A DNA stretch of 64,000 nt. It comes from an uncultured Pelagibacteraceae bacterium (lineage in GTDB: Bacteria; Pseudomonadota; Alphaproteobacteria; Pelagibacterales; Pelagibacteraceae). Both the position numbers and the translations under genes were made by a program. This document shows positions 5,763-64,000 of this stretch, piece after piece. The notes below the pieces were generated by a model. The model did not search any database and was not told the DNA's origin. It saw only the letters and a list, made by a program, of their open reading frames with translations. Position 1 is the stretch's first letter; every line of letters starts with the position of its first letter. Location: the NCBI GenBank assembly GCA_902543575.1, contig CACBYV010000002.1, positions 62,001-126,000 of the forward strand. The letters are read 5' to 3'.

Positions 5763-7043
5763 ATGGATTTAAAACAATCTGTTAAAGCAGCATCATTAAA
5801 TAAGTCAACATATATCAATTTAAGATGGATTGGGATTTTAGGTCAATTTATAACTATAAACACAGTCAAATTTATTTTTGGTTTTGAGTTCAACTTTATT
5901 TTATCTAATCTTATAATTTTTGTTGGAGCTTTAAGTAACTTTTACTTAATGTTTTTTTATAAAAAACCCGTACTTTCAAACGCGACTTCTTTTAATTTTT
6001 TATCTTTAGATATACTTCAATTGAGCGCTTTACTTTACTTATCTGGGGGTATTTTAAATCCATTTTCAATATTCCTTTTGATACCAAGTGTATTTGCTGC
6101 ATCCAATTTAAATATTAAAACAAATATTGCTTTAATTTTAATTACTCTAGCATCGATTATAATTTTAACTTTTTATCATTATGAATTGCCAAAACCATTG
6201 GATGAATATACTATTAGTCTGTATTATTACTATGCAATTCCCCTTGCATTGATAATAGCATTATTTTTTTTAAATTATTTTGCATTTATTTTTGGACAAG
6301 AAACAAATCTTAGGAAAGATGCATTAGATAAAATCCAAGAGGTAATTTCTAAAGAACATGAGCTGGTTTCACTTGGGGGACAGGCTGCAGCTGCAGCTCA
6401 TTCATTTGGTACTCCTTTGTCTACAATTAAAATAATTTCCCACGATTTATTTGATCAATTTAAAGATAATAATGATGTTAAAAAAGATCTCGAACTATTA
6501 ATTAGTCAGGTTAATAGGTGTAATGAGATTCTAAAAAAATTAACGTTAAATCCTACTATAGAAGATGATTTTATTGACAAAAATAAAACGCTTTACGATT
6601 ATATTAATGAGATAGTTAACTCATTTAAGGAAATTTCTAATAAGAATTTCAATATTGATAAAGAGCAAGATTCTAACTCATTTGAAATATTAAAATCTGT
6701 TGAAATTGTTTATGGTTTGAGGAATTTTATTGGAAATGCTAACAAATTTTCAAATGATAATATCTATATTGCTATCAAAAGTGACAGTCAAAAGACTGAA
6801 ATAACAATAGAGGATGATGGCCCTGGTATACCAAAAGATATACTTAATAAGATTGGAGAGCCTTATATTAAGACACTTAAACCCAAAGATAACAAAAAAA
6901 CTGGACTGGGTTTAGGGATTTTTATAGGCAAAACATTGTTGGAAAAAAATTCTGCCAGAATAACAATTAGAAATTCAGAAACTAGAGGTGGAGCTGAAGT
7001 AAATATAGAATGGGAAAATAAAAATTTAAAAAAATTAGTGTAA
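5763..7043 (+). CDS. regB: Redox-sensing sensor histidine kinase, RegB/PrrB/ActS family
   Basis: A 426-aa inner-membrane sensor kinase. About six hydrophobic segments lie within residues 20-178, including the quinone-type motif GGILNPF (95-101) known in RegB. The H-box [12 protein letters not shown] carries the phospho-accepting His213. The redox-box cysteine is retained in QVNRCNEIL (Cys253). ATP-binding motifs follow: N-box [10 protein letters not shown] (321-330), DDGPGI (351-356) and GLGLGIF (381-387). In related bacteria it controls the response regulator RegA according to quinone and oxygen status; no regA is in this window. Its last 9 bases overlap the 3' end of cobT, which converges from the other strand. 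Confidence 0.9.
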
Positions 7044-8825
7044 TTTTTTATTATTTTCAAACAATCCACTAAGCTGACCAATCATTACATCACCTAATTC
7101 TTGAACATCAGCAATTTTTATCGCTTTTTTGTAATATCTCGAAACATCGTGACCTATACCTATAGCAAGAATTTCGATATCACTTTTGTTTTCAATTGAT
7201 TTTACAGTTTGCTTTAGATGTTTTTCTAAAAAATCACCCGAGTTAACAGATAATGTTGAATCATCAACTGGAGCTCCATCAGAAATAACCATAAGAATTT
7301 TTCTTTCTTCTTTTCTTTTCTTAAGTCTATTGAAAGCCCAAGTAATAGCTTCACCATCAATATTTTCTTTAAGCAAACCCTCTTTTAGCATTAAACCTAA
7401 ATTTTTTTTTGATTGTCTCCAGTGAGTATCAGCAGATTTATAAATTATATGTCTTAAGTCATTCAAACGTCCTGGATTTTTTAATTTTCCAAGTTTATTC
7501 CACTTTTCTCTGCTCTTACCGCCCTTCCAATTCTTTGTTGTGAAACCAAGAATTTCAACTTTAACCGAGCATCTTTCTAATGTTCTAGACAATATATCAG
7601 CACAAAGAGCGGCAATAGTAATTGGTCTTCCTCTCATAGATCCAGAATTATCTATTAGTAAAGTCACAACTGTATCTTTAAACTCTAAATCTTTCTCTTT
7701 TTTAAAAGAAAGGGAATTATATGGATCAATTATTATTCTTGGTAATTTTGAACTATCTAATAAACCTTCTTCAAGATCAAATTCCCAAGATCTATTTTGT
7801 TTTGCAAGTAACTGTCTTTGTAATTTATTTGCGAGTTTTGTAATTATATCTTGGAAACTAGTTAGCTGTTGATCTAAATTTTTTCTTAATTTTGAAATTT
7901 CTTCAGAATTTTCCAATGTTTCTGCTTTTGCTGTCTCATCAAATTCTGAAGTATATATTTTATATTCTTTATTACTTATTCCTAAATTTTTTTTCTGAAC
8001 AATATTTTCTATTTCATTATTTTCAGCATCATCATTTCCTAGTTGTTCATCAAGTCTAAATTCATTCATTTCGTCAGAACTATCAACTCCTTCATTAATA
8101 CTGTCTTCCTCTTCTCTTTCTTGAGAGTCTCCACTATCTGCTTTTTGATCATCTTTTGAATTATTGTTATCTTGTTCATCCTCTTTCTGCTCTTCCCTTT
8201 TGTTTTCTTCTTCGGATTCGAAGATTTCCATATTTTGAAGAATTTCTGATATTTTAGAATTGTATATGTCCTGATTCTCTGCATTTTCTTTTAAAAAGTG
8301 TATGTGTTTATCTAAAGATTTTTCAAAATCATCTTTCCAGTATGATAAAATTTTTTCAGCGTTTTCTGTTAAATTTACGTTCATTATTTTATTAAGCATG
8401 TAATATTCAAAAGCTTCAGAAACGTTAGATTCTTCTTTCTTTTTTATATTTTCAGATTTTGCTGCACTTACCTTATTGTTGTATTTGGCCATTAAATTTT
8501 CAGAAATTCCCTTCATCATTTGTGAGCCTAAAAGTTCATATCTTATTTTTTCAGAAATTTTATAAAGTGTATGGCATGTGGGAGTTTTTGGAATATTTTG
8601 TTCTAAAGTGGAATTATCAGAAAATTTTCTTTTTAACGCTTCTGAATCTGCCTCGGCTCTTAACTTAATAAAGTTTTCTTTATCTTTTAAATTATCAAAC
8701 TTAGAAATATTAAATTCTTTTAAATTTTTTTTGTCTTTTAATGGATATGTTTCACCTGAAATGGCTTTAATCGTTGAGTTTAAAGCTTGTTTAAATTGCT
8801 CTTTTATAAGATCATCTTTGTTCAT
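7035..8825 (-). CDS. cobT: CobT-like von Willebrand A protein (cobaltochelatase CobT family)
   Basis: A 596-aa protein. The N-terminal part is conserved CobT sequence, a very acidic Glu/Asp/Asn-rich stretch spans about 202-280, and the C-terminal VWA domain has an intact MIDAS motif LIDNSGSM (near 390-397). In B12 producers CobT and CobS form the AAA+/VWA engine for CobN cobalt insertion. I chose the ATG at 8825 because it overlaps the cobS stop (TAATG); an upstream in-frame ATG at 8873 lies deep inside cobS. No cobN or other B12 genes are here, so the enzyme role is inherited from the family and the true client is uncertain. Confidence 0.88.
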
Positions 8826-9799
8826 TAAACCTGAATATTTATCATCGACTCTGGCAGTTCTTCGCCAAAACATCTTTGATAGTATTCTGCGATTGTATTC
8901 TTTTCTACGTCATCACATTTATTTAAAAAAGTTACTCTGAACGCATAACCCACATCTTTAAATATTTCAGAATTTTCTGCCCAATGTAGTACTGTTCTAG
9001 GGCTCATAACAGTTGAAATATCTCCAGCCATAAATCCTTTTCTAGTAAGTGTCGCAACTTTTATCATGTTTGCAACTCTCTCTTTACCTTTATTATTATC
9101 TAAAGATTTATTTTTCCCTAAAATAATTTCCATTTCTTTTTCTAAAGCTAAATAATTTAATGTTGTTACGATATTCCATCTATCCATTTGTCCCTGGTTT
9201 ATTTGTTGTGTTCCATGATAGAGTCCAGTTGTATCCCCTAAACCAACAGTATTTGAGGTTGCAAATAATCTGAAATATTTATTCTGCTTAATGACCTTAT
9301 TCTTATCTAATAAAGTAAAATTTCCTTCAGCTTCCAAAACTCTTTGAATTACAAACATCACATCTGGTCTACCGGCATCATATTCATCAAATACTAAAGC
9401 TATTGGATTTTGTATCGACCAAGGAAGAATTCCTTCCTTGAATTCTGTGACTTGTTTTCCATCTTTGATGACAATTGAGTCTTTACCAATTAAATCTATT
9501 CTACTGACATGACTATCTAAGTTAATTCTGATACATGGCCAATTTAATCTGGCTGCAATTTGTTCTATATGTGTGGATTTACCTGTTCCATGATAACCTT
9601 GCACTAAGACTCTTTTATTAAATGAAAATCCGGAGAGGATTGCTAAAGTTGTATCTTTATCAAATTTATAAGTTTTATCTATATCTGGAACATAATCAGT
9701 TTTTTTTGAAAATGCGTCCACTTCCATATCAGAATCTATACCGAATGTTTGTTTAATCGATAATTTAATATCTGGGGTTTGTTCAATATTAGTTGTCAA
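8825..9799 (-). CDS. cobS: CobS-like AAA+ ATPase (MoxR-type; cobaltochelatase CobS family)
   Basis: A 324-aa AAA+ ATPase. Walker A is GYHGTGKST (68-76) and Walker B is LVFDEYD (135-141); a sensor-type ATSNT follows in [13 protein letters not shown]. It is the expected partner of the VWA protein encoded next, forming a MoxR-VWA type machine in the cytoplasm. It overlaps cobT by 1 base and the J-domain gene by 11 bases, so translation is probably coupled across all three. The length and sequence agree with alphaproteobacterial CobS. Confidence 0.9.
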
Positions 9800-30727: not shown

Positions 30728-31757
30728 AAATATTTTAAAAGTAATTAAGTCAAATGGATATAAATATATTGATCTTGATACTGTTATTGACACCAATTTA
30801 ATATTGAAAAGATCAGGAGAAAATTTCAAAAGATTTATATTTTCTTTCAATGATCAATTAGGAAATGAACTTTGTTTAAGACCTGATTTAACAATTGCAT
30901 CTTGTGTTAGATATTTAAATAATAATAAGAAAACTAGTGAAAAAATTTTCTATAGTGGTCAAGCATTTAGAAAAGGATTAAATAAAAAAGATTCTGTTAT
31001 CAGGAGTCAAATTGGTTTTGAAATATTAGGATCTTTTACTGAAAAAAAAGATGATAAAAAAATAATAGAAACTTCACTTAAAGCATTGTCAAAGATTAAA
31101 TATAAAAGTGGAAATTTAGTAATAGGTAACATAGAAATTTTTAGGCTTTTGTTAGATAAATTGGATTGTCCAGCAAGATGGAAACTAAGATTGCAACGTC
31201 ATTTTTGGAGAGAAAAATATTTTAATGATTTATTAAAAAGATTGGAGACGAATTCTGATATCGATCCAACAATTGTAGAAATAGATAAAAAAAAATATTC
31301 CAAAATGATTAATGGAAATCAAAAAAAAGAAGTTGCTGGAAGATCAATAGAAGAAATATTATTAAGATTTGACACTAAAATTAAAGATCCAAGAAGGACA
31401 AAGAAAGGTAGTAATGTTGTAAAAATTTTAAAAGAGTACTTAAAAATTGAATGTCCTATTAATCAAGCATCTAAAAAGTTAAATTTATTTTTTAAAAAAA
31501 ATAAAATTAATCTTAGAGTTCAGGATGATTATTTTCCAATAACTAAAAATAAAATTAATAAATTAAATGTTAGATTTAATTCTTCTTTTGGAAGACATCT
31601 CGAATATTACACTGGTTTGGTATTTAAGATTGATATTAAATCGAAGTCTGAGAAATTAAATATTAAAGGTGGTAGATACGATTCTTTAATTAAAGATCTT
31701 GGCTTTAAAAAAAATATACCAGCTGTTGGAGCTGCTATTAACTTAGAAAAAATATGA
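30705..31757 (+). CDS. hisZ: ATP phosphoribosyltransferase regulatory subunit HisZ
   Basis: A 350-aa HisRS-like paralogue without charging activity. It keeps class II core traits (LCLRPDLTIASCVRYL, FYSGQAFRKG, GRHLEYYTGLVF) but lacks the anticodon-binding domain. It activates the short form of HisG in the first step of histidine synthesis. Start chosen at ATG 30705 because an AAGGAG site precedes it by about 10 bases; a TTG lies just before. It overlaps hisS by 23 bases and the sulfotransferase by 4 bases. Confidence 0.9.
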   Translation: MKSKNLSENILKVIKSNGYKYIDLDTVIDTNLILKRSGENFKRFIFSFNDQLGNELCLRPDLTIASCVRYLNNNKKTSEKIFYSGQAFRKGLNKKDSVIRSQIGFEILGSFTEKKDDKKIIETSLKALSKIKYKSGNLVIGNIEIFRLLLDKLDCPARWKLRLQRHFWREKYFNDLLKRLETNSDIDPTIVEIDKKKYSKMINGNQKKEVAGRSIEEILLRFDTKIKDPRRTKKGSNVVKILKEYLKIECPINQASKKLNLFFKKNKINLRVQDDYFPITKNKINKLNVRFNSSFGRHLEYYTGLVFKIDIKSKSEKLNIKGGRYDSLIKDLGFKKNIPAVGAAINLEKI

Positions 31758-32599
31758 TAATTTGGTTAGCTTCATATCCTAAAAGTGGAAATACTTGGTT
31801 GAGATCTTTAATAGCAAATTACTATTTTTCAGAAACAGGTGATTTTAATTTTGAACTTTTAGAAAAAATAGACTCTTTCCCAAGTAACAAATATTTTAGA
31901 AAGTATTTAGATAAATTTAACCAGCCTCACGATACTTCAAAGTATTGGATAAAGGAGCAAGAAAAAATTAATCAATCCAAAGGTTTGAAATTTTTTAAAA
32001 CCCATAATGCACTTTGTAAAATAAACGGTAATCAATTTACTAATAAAGAAAATACAGTAGGTGTTATTTATATAGTTAGAGATCCGAGAAATGTAATTTC
32101 TTCATTATCAAACCATTATCAAATTTCCGTCGATGATGCTTTTCAATTTATGACAGATGAAAAAAGAGGAATTGTCTCCAAAGAAAAAGAGAGATTTTTA
32201 GGTTTTCAAGCACTTTTTTCATGGAAGTTAAATCAGAAATCATGGGTAGATAATAAATTATATCCAGTTTTAACTGTAAGGTATGAAGATCTACAAAGTG
32301 ATGCACTAAATACTTTTAAACATGTTATTAACTTCGTTCATAAAATTTCTAAATCAGATGAAAAATTTAATAAAGAAAAAGCATTAAAATGTATAAGAAA
32401 TTGCAATTTTAATAATTTGAAAAAACTAGAGGACGAAAAAGGTTTTGCAGAAGCAATTACAAAAAAAGGTTCTGACGAAAAAATAAAATTTTTTAATTTA
32501 GGAAAAGATAATGATTATAGGAAATTACTTAATGAGAATTTAATAAAAAAAATGAACAATTTATTTCAAGAAGAATTAGTAAAATATAAATATGAGTAA
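31754..32599 (+). CDS. PAPS-dependent sulfotransferase
   Basis: A 281-aa protein with both cofactor signatures: 5'-phosphosulfate loop YPKSGNTW (8-15) and 3'-phosphate motif IVRDPRNVISS (107-117), plus KTH (82-84) as the usual catalytic region. It should transfer sulfate from PAPS to a small molecule, glycan or protein; the acceptor is unknown. No signal peptide. It lies between hisZ (4-base overlap) and hisG (8-base overlap), inside a histidine operon, which is an unusual place for this family. Base composition matches its neighbours. Confidence 0.88.
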   Translation: MIIWLASYPKSGNTWLRSLIANYYFSETGDFNFELLEKIDSFPSNKYFRKYLDKFNQPHDTSKYWIKEQEKINQSKGLKFFKTHNALCKINGNQFTNKENTVGVIYIVRDPRNVISSLSNHYQISVDDAFQFMTDEKRGIVSKEKERFLGFQALFSWKLNQKSWVDNKLYPVLTVRYEDLQSDALNTFKHVINFVHKISKSDEKFNKEKALKCIRNCNFNNLKKLEDEKGFAEAITKKGSDEKIKFFNLGKDNDYRKLLNENLIKKMNNLFQEELVKYKYE

Positions 32600-60806: not shown

Positions 60807-61913
60807 ATGAAAAATTATTTAAATTTTGAGACTGATATCAAAAACTTAGAGATAGAACTAGATAAATTAAAAGATCCTTATAATCAAGACGGTCTTTCAG
60901 AGGTTGATACAAATAAAATAACTGATTTACAAAATGAAATAGATAAAAAACTTAAAGACGTATATTCAAATCTTGATGCATGGCAGACGACATTAGTTGC
61001 AAGACATGAAGATAGACCTAAATCAAAATTTTTTATAGATAATTTATTTGATGAATTTATTTCACTTTCAGGGGATAGATTTTATGGAGAAGACAAATCA
61101 GTAATTTGTGGATTTGGCAAGTTTAATTCTAAGTCAGTTTTAGTAATTGGACAGGAAAAAGGTGAAAATTTAGACACAAGGATTGAGAGAAATTTTGGGA
61201 TGATGAGACCAGAAGGTTACAGAAAAACAATAAGGTTAATGAATTTAGCTAATAAATTTAAAATACCAATAATTAACTTTGTTGATACTCCAGGTGCTTA
61301 CCCTGGAGTTGGTGCTGAAGAAAGAGGACAGGCCGAAGCAATTGCAAAGTCTATTGAATGTTCTATGCAACTGGCTGTTCCAACTTTATCGATAATTATA
61401 GGCGAAGGAGGCTCTGGTGGTGCTATTGCGTTAGCTTCTTCAAGTAAAGTATTGATGTTAGAGAATGCAATATATTCAGTAATATCTCCAGAGGGATGTG
61501 CAACCATACTTTGGCGAGATCCAACAAAGACTTTAGAAGCTGCTAAAGCTATGAAGCTCTCAGCGAAAGATCTTTTAAAACTAGAAATAATTGATGAGAT
61601 AATACCCGAACCTTTAGGAGGTGCACATCGAGATAAAGATCTTATTTTAGATAATGTGCGTAATGCTATTGATAGAAATCTAAGTAAGTTTCTCACATTA
61701 AATGAAGAAGAAATATTAAATCAAAGAAAGAATAAGTTTTTGGATATTGGAAGGAATAAAGGTTTCAGTACTAATACAGCAAATCAAGATAAACTTACTA
61801 TTAAACATAATCTCCTTCAAAATTTAATTTCGAATATTCAATTGAATAAAAAATTGTTTATTTCAATTACATCAATTCTTCTATTATTAATTTTATTAAC
61901 AGTGATTTTTTAA
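60807..61913 (+). CDS. accA: Acetyl-CoA carboxylase carboxyltransferase subunit alpha with C-terminal hydrophobic tail
   Basis: A 368-aa AccA; the family usually ends near 315-320. Residues 1-320 are standard: DAWQTTLVARHEDRPK, DTPGAYPGVGAEERGQ, GEGGSGGAIALA and IIPEPLGGAHR. After the usual end (FLDIGRNKGF) there is an added stretch with a polar spacer (321-349) and a 19-residue hydrophobic helix (350-368) reaching the last residue. This looks like a tail anchor. It works with AccD for malonyl-CoA. The stop is one base before the convergent secA stop. Confidence 0.94.
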   Translation: MKNYLNFETDIKNLEIELDKLKDPYNQDGLSEVDTNKITDLQNEIDKKLKDVYSNLDAWQTTLVARHEDRPKSKFFIDNLFDEFISLSGDRFYGEDKSVICGFGKFNSKSVLVIGQEKGENLDTRIERNFGMMRPEGYRKTIRLMNLANKFKIPIINFVDTPGAYPGVGAEERGQAEAIAKSIECSMQLAVPTLSIIIGEGGSGGAIALASSSKVLMLENAIYSVISPEGCATILWRDPTKTLEAAKAMKLSAKDLLKLEIIDEIIPEPLGGAHRDKDLILDNVRNAIDRNLSKFLTLNEEEILNQRKNKFLDIGRNKGFSTNTANQDKLTIKHNLLQNLISNIQLNKKLFISITSILLLLILLTVIF

Positions 61914-61914
61914 T

Positions 61915-64000
61915 TTATAAAGCACCGCAGCAGTGTTTATATTTTTTCCCAGATCCACATGGGCAAGGTTCATTTCTTCCAATTTTACTTTTTGCAATAG
62001 ATTTTAAGTTTTCTTTCACTTTGTTTTGAGAATTATCTTCCTCTTCTTTTTGTATAATTTTTAAATTTAAAAGCATTGTTACAAGATCAGTTTTTAATTT
62101 TCCCAGTAAATTTTCAAATAATAGAAAAGCTTCTTTTTTGTATTCTACTAAAGGATCTCTTTGTCCATAAGATCTTAAACCAATTACTTGTCTTAATTGC
62201 TCTAGGTATTGAATATGTGATTTCCAGTTTTGATCTATAATTTGTACTAATATTCTTTTTTCAATTTCTTTTCCTTGTTCAACGCCTAATAAATTATTTC
62301 TTTCATCTCTATTACTTACAAATTTATCTTTTATTTTTTTTTCCATTGTTTTTAGATCTGAATTTAAAATTTCACCTAATTCATCATCAGTTATTGATTT
62401 ACCTAGGGTCTGCTTTAAAGCATTTGGAAATTCTTTAGAATTTGGGGATTTTTCATATAATATTTTTTGTCTTTTTAAATTTTCTAAGACCTCTTCAAGA
62501 AAAATATCTGAATAATTCTCCTTTTCTTTGTCATTTATTACATTTTTTCGTTGTTCAAAAATTACATGTCTTTGGTCATTAAGAACATTATCAAATTTGA
62601 TAAGTGTTTTCCTTATATCAAAGTTTCTCGCTTCAACTTTTTGTTGCGCTCTTTCAATTGCTTTATTTATCCAAGGATGATCAATACTTTCACCATCTTT
62701 AAGACCAAGCTTTTCTAGCATTGAATTCATTGTTTCTGAGCCAAACAATCTCATCAAATCATCTTCTAAACTGACAAAAAATATTGAACTTCCTTCATCC
62801 CCCTGTCTTCCAGATCGTCCTCTTGCTTGATTATCTACTCTCCTACTTTCCATTCTTTCTGTTCCGATTACAAATAAACCTCCCTTTTTTTTTACATCCT
62901 CCTTTTCAGATTGATCCTGTCCACCCAATTTAATATCAACACCTCTCCCTGATATACTTGTTGTAATAATTACAGAATTTATTCTGCCTGCGTTTGCAAT
63001 AATTTCTGCTTCTTTCTCATGATTTTTGGCATTTAAAACAATATGTTTTATCTTCTCTTTTTCTAACAAATTAGAGTAATGTTCAGATTTATTTATGCTA
63101 GATGTAAAAACCAATAGTGGTTGTCCTATTTCATTACATTCTCTTATTTTTTGAATGATTGCATTATCTTTTTCTAAACTTGTTCTAAAGATTTGGTCGT
63201 TAAGATCATTTCTTATCATATCTTTGTTAGTAGGTATTTGTAAAACCGGCAAGTTATAAATTTCAAAAAATTCTGCAGACTCTGTTTGCGCTGTTCCTGT
63301 GCAACCTGCCAATTTATCATACAACTTAAAAAAATTTTGATAGGTTATTGACGCCAGTGTTTGATTTTCAGCTTTAACTTCTATTTTTTCTTTAGCTTCT
63401 AAGCTTTGATGAAGTCCATCACCAAATCTTCTGCCTGGCAATTGCCTACCTGTTTGTTCGTCAATTATAATTATTTCGTTATCTTTAATTATGTAATCTC
63501 TTCCATTCTCAAATAAATAATTTGCCCTTAATGCTTGGTTTACATGATGAACTAAATGTAAATTTTCTGGGTCATAAAAATTATCATTTTTTAAAATACC
63601 AGCATCAGAAAATATTTTTTCAACATTATCAATTCCTTCATTTGTTAAGAGTATGTTTTTTTCTTTTTCATCTAAGTCAAAGTCTGTTTTTTTCAAATTT
63701 TTAATTAGTCTATCTACAGCAATATATTGCATAGTTTTATCTTCTGCTGCTCCCGAAATAACTAAAGGAGTTCTAGCTTCATCTATTAAACAAGAGTCAA
63801 TCTCATCAACTATCGCGAAGTTATGTTTCCTCAATACCATCTCATTTTTTGAATATTTCATGTTGTCTCTTAAAAAATCAAAGCCTAGTTCACTATTAGT
63901 TGCATAAGTTATATCTTTATTATAATTTTCTTTTCGTTCCTCATCTGATTGGTTTGAGTTTATATATCCACAACTCAAACCCAAAAAATTGTAAATTTTA
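61915..64000 (-). CDS. secA: Preprotein translocase ATPase SecA (N-terminal part outside the window)
   Basis: Partial: the frame stays open to base 64000 and its first visible residues read KIYNFLGLSCGYIN, in nucleotide-binding domain 1. About 694 residues remain. The preprotein crosslinking and second nucleotide domains follow (ITYATNSELGFDFLRDNM, VDEIDSCLIDEARTPL, DNQARGRSGRQGDEG). The C-terminal zinc motif GRNEPCPCGSGKKYKHCC is complete, so it should bind SecB or ribosomes. A TTG at 63984 is internal. It drives Sec-dependent export with SecYEG. Confidence 0.96.
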   Translation of the reverse strand, partial: KIYNFLGLSCGYINSNQSDEERKENYNKDITYATNSELGFDFLRDNMKYSKNEMVLRKHNFAIVDEIDSCLIDEARTPLVISGAAEDKTMQYIAVDRLIKNLKKTDFDLDEKEKNILLTNEGIDNVEKIFSDAGILKNDNFYDPENLHLVHHVNQALRANYLFENGRDYIIKDNEIIIIDEQTGRQLPGRRFGDGLHQSLEAKEKIEVKAENQTLASITYQNFFKLYDKLAGCTGTAQTESAEFFEIYNLPVLQIPTNKDMIRNDLNDQIFRTSLEKDNAIIQKIRECNEIGQPLLVFTSSINKSEHYSNLLEKEKIKHIVLNAKNHEKEAEIIANAGRINSVIITTSISGRGVDIKLGGQDQSEKEDVKKKGGLFVIGTERMESRRVDNQARGRSGRQGDEGSSIFFVSLEDDLMRLFGSETMNSMLEKLGLKDGESIDHPWINKAIERAQQKVEARNFDIRKTLIKFDNVLNDQRHVIFEQRKNVINDKEKENYSDIFLEEVLENLKRQKILYEKSPNSKEFPNALKQTLGKSITDDELGEILNSDLKTMEKKIKDKFVSNRDERNNLLGVEQGKEIEKRILVQIIDQNWKSHIQYLEQLRQVIGLRSYGQRDPLVEYKKEAFLLFENLLGKLKTDLVTMLLNLKIIQKEEEDNSQNKVKENLKSIAKSKIGRNEPCPCGSGKKYKHCCGAL

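Follow-up and report, generated by a model that had tools for sequence, protein, structure and literature searches.

Acetyl-CoA carboxylase (ACC), normally a soluble enzyme, carries out the committed step of fatty-acid synthesis. It consists of a biotin carboxylase half (AccC and AccB) and a carboxyltransferase half (AccA and AccD), the latter an alpha2-beta2 assembly; mammalian ACC2 is a eukaryotic multidomain ACC. In Arabidopsis, the C-terminal extension of the plastid alpha-carboxyltransferase (alpha-CT) is reported to bind the envelope proteins CTI1-3, with attenuation of fatty-acid synthesis; this docking is favoured by light, and while the carboxyltransferase half of the plastid enzyme is described as tightly membrane-bound, the BC/BCCP half is partly detachable (PMC7712654). 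In E. coli, the inner-membrane protein YhcB is reported to bind AccA at entry into stationary phase, probably sequestering it (PMC12977641). The hydrophobic N-terminus of mammalian ACC2 is described as placing the carboxylase on mitochondria, where its malonyl-CoA acts locally (PMC8963101). For bacterial proteins held by a C-terminal helix, segments with a GRAVY of 1.04-1.57 are reported to suffice for insertion in E. coli with the N-terminus inside and the C-terminus outside (N-in/C-out), and the discussion of the same paper names no metabolic carboxylase among tail-anchored proteins (PMC6794478). The words 'carboxylase' and 'Pelagibacter' are both absent from an older survey by text search (PMC3087755), and among the matches listed in our literature search no membrane-anchored SAR11 AccA is described.

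The accA gene considered here lies in a 64,000-nucleotide stretch of DNA from an uncultured Pelagibacteraceae bacterium (the window, to which all positions refer), and the features of the locus are collected in Table 1. Its product is AccA by all the sequence and fold tests made, with catalysis predicted. The protein scores above the curated cut-offs of two full-length NCBIfam AccA models (TIGR00513, 380.4 bits against 319.3; NF004344, 421.5 against 357) and of Pfam PF03255 (ACCA, 426.8 against 23). E. coli AccA entries are its top relatives in a sequence search against solved structures, and they take the first rank (8uz2_A, TM-score by target 0.92) and the third (2f9y_A, 0.94) in a fold search with the AccA model. 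An alignment of 63 AccA cores, the window's included, holds 50-odd invariant columns, and the genome (1.19 Mb in 33 contigs, 93.6% complete) has a single AccA match. Both NCBIfam models stop at residue 316-317 of the 368, E. coli AccA ends near residue 317 in the alignment, and outgroup AccAs stop at or near residue 321, the start of the linker.

Table 1. Features of the accA locus and its accD partner, in window coordinates.
Feature	Position	Strand	Details
accD, carboxyltransferase beta partner, 310 aa	38271..39203	-	TIGR00515 accD best family, 278 bits, below cut-off 317.45
accA, acetyl-CoA carboxylase carboxyltransferase subunit alpha	60807..61913	+	368 aa, ORF with C-terminal tail
AccA catalytic core	60816..61751	+	Pfam ACCA, residues 4-315; fold match to E. 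coli AccA
Polar linker, low-confidence	61767..61811	+	Residues 321-335; AlphaFold2 pLDDT <50 at 323-330
Short helix ahead of membrane segment	61812..61844	+	Residues 336-346; DSSP on AlphaFold2 model
Predicted C-terminal transmembrane helix	61854..61910	+	Residues 350-368, NKK just before; model helix 348-367
secA, off window edge	61915..63999	-	NF009538 SecA, 843.9 bits against cut-off 814

The window's AccA continues for 48 residues past the carboxyltransferase-alpha core (321-368; 61767-61910). The preliminary description had divided this surplus over the normal AccA end into a polar spacer and a terminal hydrophobic helix of 19 residues, and its coordinates are exact. The hydrophobic last 19 residues (350-368) read LFISITSILLLLILLTVIF. 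The top 19-residue Kyte-Doolittle mean in the tail is 2.94, which exceeds the GRAVY range of 1.04-1.57 given for E. coli tail-anchored segments, the two measures being close rather than identical (PMC6794478). Only one segment of the whole protein has a hydropathy of at least 1.6 and it ends at the last residue, so that by sequence AccA counts as a tail-anchored protein. In the AlphaFold2 model the core helix runs to residue 320 and the terminal helix is a block with pLDDT of 91-97. Hydrophobic segments occur in 9 of the 58 gene-like ORFs of at least 120 aa in the window (overlapping ones removed), and AccA alone combines a terminal helix with at most one other segment.

An AccA match is present in 283 of 297 sampled Pelagibacterales genomes and absent from the remaining 14. 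We extracted 155 Pelagibacterales AccA loci, 75 from sampled genomes and 80 from contigs named as Pelagibacteraceae, Pelagibacterales or Candidatus Pelagibacter, i.e. SAR11. These span 11 genera in two families, f1 (g1-g7) and f2 (g8-g11), and are to be read as loci rather than species, one species possibly standing under two records; they yield 139 distinct tails. The preliminary description had named conservation among SAR11 AccAs as one check on the tail, with tail-less relatives, or a frameshift near 61767 hiding a normal end, as what would speak against it. A tail of 42-55 aa past the residue-316 position, with the hydrophobic helix at its end, is present in 155 of 155 extracted loci, none of which lacks it or ends at the usual place by way of such a frameshift. 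A frameshift or assembly error as the source of the tail is ruled out by its presence in all 155. Fusion with a known small domain was also rejected, Pfam returning 0 families in the window's tail; one f2 tail gave two sub-threshold matches (E 0.011 and 0.035), both taken as chance. Two of the extracted loci are unusual in their cores. In L119 (draft genome G246), AccA shifts from one reading frame to another near residue 40 and gives two overlapping matches, probably through a sequencing error; its tail is intact. L141 (G054; f1, g3) sits on a long AccA branch (0.66) at 46% identity to the window, its genus mates L135 and L137 being at 54-55%, and reflects either fast evolution or a mixed assembly; its tail is still present.

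No membrane-helix tail was found in 67 AccA loci from other Alphaproteobacteria (27 and 40) or in 20 loci from elsewhere in the phylum. The first 27 alphaproteobacterial outgroup loci extend 1-6 residues past the residue-316 position. The further 40, which are the listed rows beyond those 27 with an open frame of at least 341 aa, run no more than 7 residues beyond where the match ends, with the exception of L199; the phylum loci are 20 of 25 listed rows with an open frame of at least 355 aa. Both of these selections favour tails. Among the matches listed in this wider search no other AccA has a membrane-helix tail, and the two extensions that do occur are of a non-membrane kind: 28 basic residues, R/K-rich and not hydrophobic, in L199 (G350, same class, family f56), and 34 polar residues, T/P-rich and not hydrophobic, in L238 (G613, same phylum, family f188). 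In the loci sampled here, the tail characterises the order Pelagibacterales.

The properties expected of a membrane helix recur across the order. In the 139 distinct tails, the top 19-mer Kyte-Doolittle value runs from 1.65 upwards with a median of 2.67, and simple addition of Hessa-scale values gives less than 0 for 134 of them and less than 1 for 137. In 133 of the 139, 0-2 residues follow the most hydrophobic 19-mer. The 12 residues ahead of it carry a net positive charge in 137, and lysine or arginine follows it only 4 times in total over all distinct tails. The positive charge ahead of the helix is in part what a lysine-rich, AT-rich proteome would give.

By letters alone, the constraint on the tail looks weak. 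The last 23 residues of the tails have a median identity of 26% to those of the window, and no tail column is invariant in the 39 tailed rows of the alignment, the best being F in 30, G in 27, K in 27 and L in 26. At core identities of 95-99.5%, 90-95% and 80-90%, summed pairwise dN/dS is 0.39, 0.30 and 0.64 for the tail, 0.52, 0.50 and 0.80 for its hydrophobic half, and 0.026, 0.036 and 0.066 for the core; the pairwise values are interdependent, and synonymous sites approach saturation in the 90-95% and 80-90% classes (core pS 0.62 and 0.69). Hydropathy is nevertheless fixed. Among the distinct tails whose last 23 residues are less than 35% identical to the window's, a hydropathy of at least 1.6 is kept in 105 of 105, which cover 11 genera and are related by descent rather than independent trials. 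When neutral drift is simulated, the share of cases that keep it is 43% at 32% identity, 30% at 25% and 17% at 17%. Part of the hydropathy is accounted for by composition, shuffled tails reaching 1.6 somewhere in 4949 of 13900 cases. Random AT-rich read-through of 51 aa places a hydrophobic 19-mer at most 3 residues from the end in 3.5-6% of draws; at that chance rate a hydrophobic tail in one genome alone would be only a mild surprise, and it is conservation that decides. Fast change of letters with fixed hydropathy fits a plain anchor and counts against a sequence-specific partner. The preliminary description's reading of the tail as a membrane anchor is thus supported by its terminal position, its charge, the hydropathy kept, its presence in every extracted locus and the confident model helix.

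The gene downstream bears on where the tail came from. In the window, accA and secA are convergent genes whose stop codons are separated by 1 nt. By tblastn, secA is found somewhere in 136 of the 155 SAR11 loci, and a scan for the C-terminal SecA motif places it next to accA in 93 of 155, at gaps of +8 to -15 nt. An origin of the tail as an overprint of the end of secA is rejected for the window, given its stops 1 nt apart; in the 93 scored loci any overlap is at most 15 nt. The motif is found in 8 of 27 outgroup loci, at gaps of -4, 2, 33, 158, 451, 1081, 1082 and 1160 nt, and because of the wide gaps among these 8, close accA-secA packing is not general in the outgroups. In the tail-less loci L157 and L158 (family f25), the accA and secA stops are about 10 nt apart, as worked out by hand; L157 sits beside f1 on the core tree (support 86). 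The closest tail-less relatives have no long spacer at the tail's place.

That quick, core-only tree (63 rows, 39 tailed) sets f2 apart from f1, so that the presence and absence of the tail need two changes. Together with spacer motifs that are unlike between f1 and f2, this could mean that the anchor was gained twice independently, once in each family, instead of once in their ancestor. However, a tree that joins all tailed AccAs is 0.38 log-units better (p-AU 0.529), as good as the two-change tree, and the tails of f1 and f2 sit at the same place, have similar lengths and belong to the same taxonomic order. We regard a double gain as somewhat unlikely.

The remaining ACC subunits of the same genome carry no comparable segment. 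AccD has a highest 19-mer hydropathy of 1.26 and no hydrophobic segment, and no 19-mer with a hydropathy of at least 1.6 was found in AccB (140 aa), AccC (445 aa) or AccD (310 aa), nor in FabA, beta-ketoacyl-ACP synthase or FabI. NCBIfam naming places AccC, FabA and beta-ketoacyl-ACP synthase above curated cut-offs, AccB (100.4 against 115.2) and FabI (409.2 against 446) being best matches under theirs. An anchor common to all ACC and fatty-acid enzymes is ruled out for each of these proteins. As AccB, AccC and AccD lack such an anchor, AccA would fix the carboxyltransferase half alone, and with the three Fab enzymes anchor-free as well, nothing points to a fatty-acid pathway bound to the membrane in its entirety.

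Two other places in the window are recorded here for their own sake. An ORF of 281 aa at 31754-32599, between hisZ-like and hisG-like genes, is sulfotransferase-like by eye and belongs to no NCBIfam family. A cobT/cobS pair occupies 7035-9799 (TIGR01651, 631.3 bits, below the cut-off of 759.05; TIGR01650, 567.9 against 558.55). To our knowledge, SAR11-type genomes are usually described as unable to make B12, and the real role of this pair may differ from B12 synthesis.

Taken together, these observations suggest, with a probability that we put at roughly 0.8, that SAR11 AccA is a predicted tail-anchored enzyme (N-in/C-out) keeping AccA-AccD at the cytoplasmic face of the inner membrane. Once AccA is made, its terminal helix, some 20 residues long, would insert into the inner membrane and leave the core in the cytoplasm, and the linker and short helix (about 27 residues) would let AccA-AccD reside at the cytoplasmic face, AccA binding the membrane and AccD being carried along. 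Soluble AccC and AccB would load biotin with CO2, AccB would ferry carboxybiotin to the membrane-held carboxyltransferase, and malonyl-CoA would be released close to the membrane, the consumer of the fatty acids. Insertion of the tail, its N-in/C-out orientation and any effect on activity are predictions from sequence, as is the tethering of malonyl-CoA production through AccA that the preliminary description had proposed. The tail would be a permanent, built-in dock, most likely controlling or localising the committed step of fatty-acid synthesis.

Among the docks already described, the plastid alpha-CT is likewise a homologous subunit with a C-terminal extension that is held at a membrane, but it has no predicted membrane segment, and its long coiled-coil tail binds the single-span CTI proteins instead (PMC7712654). 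In E. coli, too, AccA is the subunit that meets the inner membrane, there through YhcB (PF06295, ZapG-like), but YhcB is a separate protein and the docking is growth-phase dependent and apparently inhibitory (PMC12977641). A search for PF06295 at E 0.001 found the family in 0 of 197 Pelagibacterales genomes, the window's own included, the E. coli control being positive; by analogy, SAR11 appears to carry the dock within AccA itself, without an adaptor. Both known docks restrain ACC, and YhcB may inactivate AccA; a permanent dock cannot act in exactly this reversible manner. Mammalian ACC2 resembles SAR11 AccA in using its own hydrophobic terminus as a membrane anchor, but that anchor is N-terminal, lies at the outer mitochondrial membrane and has a role in the control of CPT1 (PMC8963101). 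The bacterial tail-anchored proteins DjlC and Flk, like SAR11 AccA, have a C-terminal membrane helix in N-in/C-out orientation with little beyond it (PMC6794478).

A stronger version of the anchor proposal is that the state of the bilayer directly sets ACC activity or assembly through the tail, replacing the adaptor-based control of E. coli and plants. We hold this to be rather unlikely; were it true, membrane demand itself would set the production of malonyl-CoA.

The helix might alternatively make a specific transmembrane contact that fixes ACC in a defined complex, its partner being either a second AccA tail or a lipid enzyme of the membrane. The short helix ahead of the membrane segment in the model would suit such a contact, as would the best-kept tail columns given above and the spacer motifs retained in some clades, for example GLFS followed by AAN and VLD.K in many f2 tails. 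However, the letters inside the hydrophobic helix change very fast while hydropathy alone is kept, and within the helix no column of the 39 rows reaches 60% beyond the preceding K, let alone invariance, which makes a specific contact quite unlikely.

It is harder still to credit the hydrophobic tail as a degradation signal through which a protease, membrane-bound or soluble, sets the level of AccA, with anchoring secondary. A degron would not need some 19 hydrophobic residues or the charges ahead of them, both of which are kept throughout the tails, and E. coli AccA is degraded without such a tail; we consider this very unlikely. Finally, a non-adaptive run-on, in which the ancestral stop was lost, an AT-rich spacer was translated and base composition alone keeps the hydropathy, would agree with the fast evolution of the tail and with the chance rate of 3.5-6% for random AT-rich reads, but it is close to refuted by the hydropathy kept in 139 of 139 distinct tails against 17-43% under drift to comparable identity, by the steady length of 42-55 aa, by a dN/dS below 1 in every pair class and, as a weak point given the wide outgroup gaps, by the lack of a spacer in L157 and L158.

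According to a 2026 paper on E. coli, the way in which ACC activity is adjusted to the growth phase and to the demand for membrane 'remains enigmatic' (PMC12977641). If the tail-anchor reading is true, a constitutive AccA anchor would be a third, and the simplest, solution to the membrane docking of the same subunit. It would also illustrate how an ordinary enzyme annotation can mask a membrane protein in streamlined genomes. Among heterotrophs of the surface ocean, SAR11 is generally considered the most abundant, and the tail is found on a rate-setting enzyme in every extracted member of this dominant marine order.
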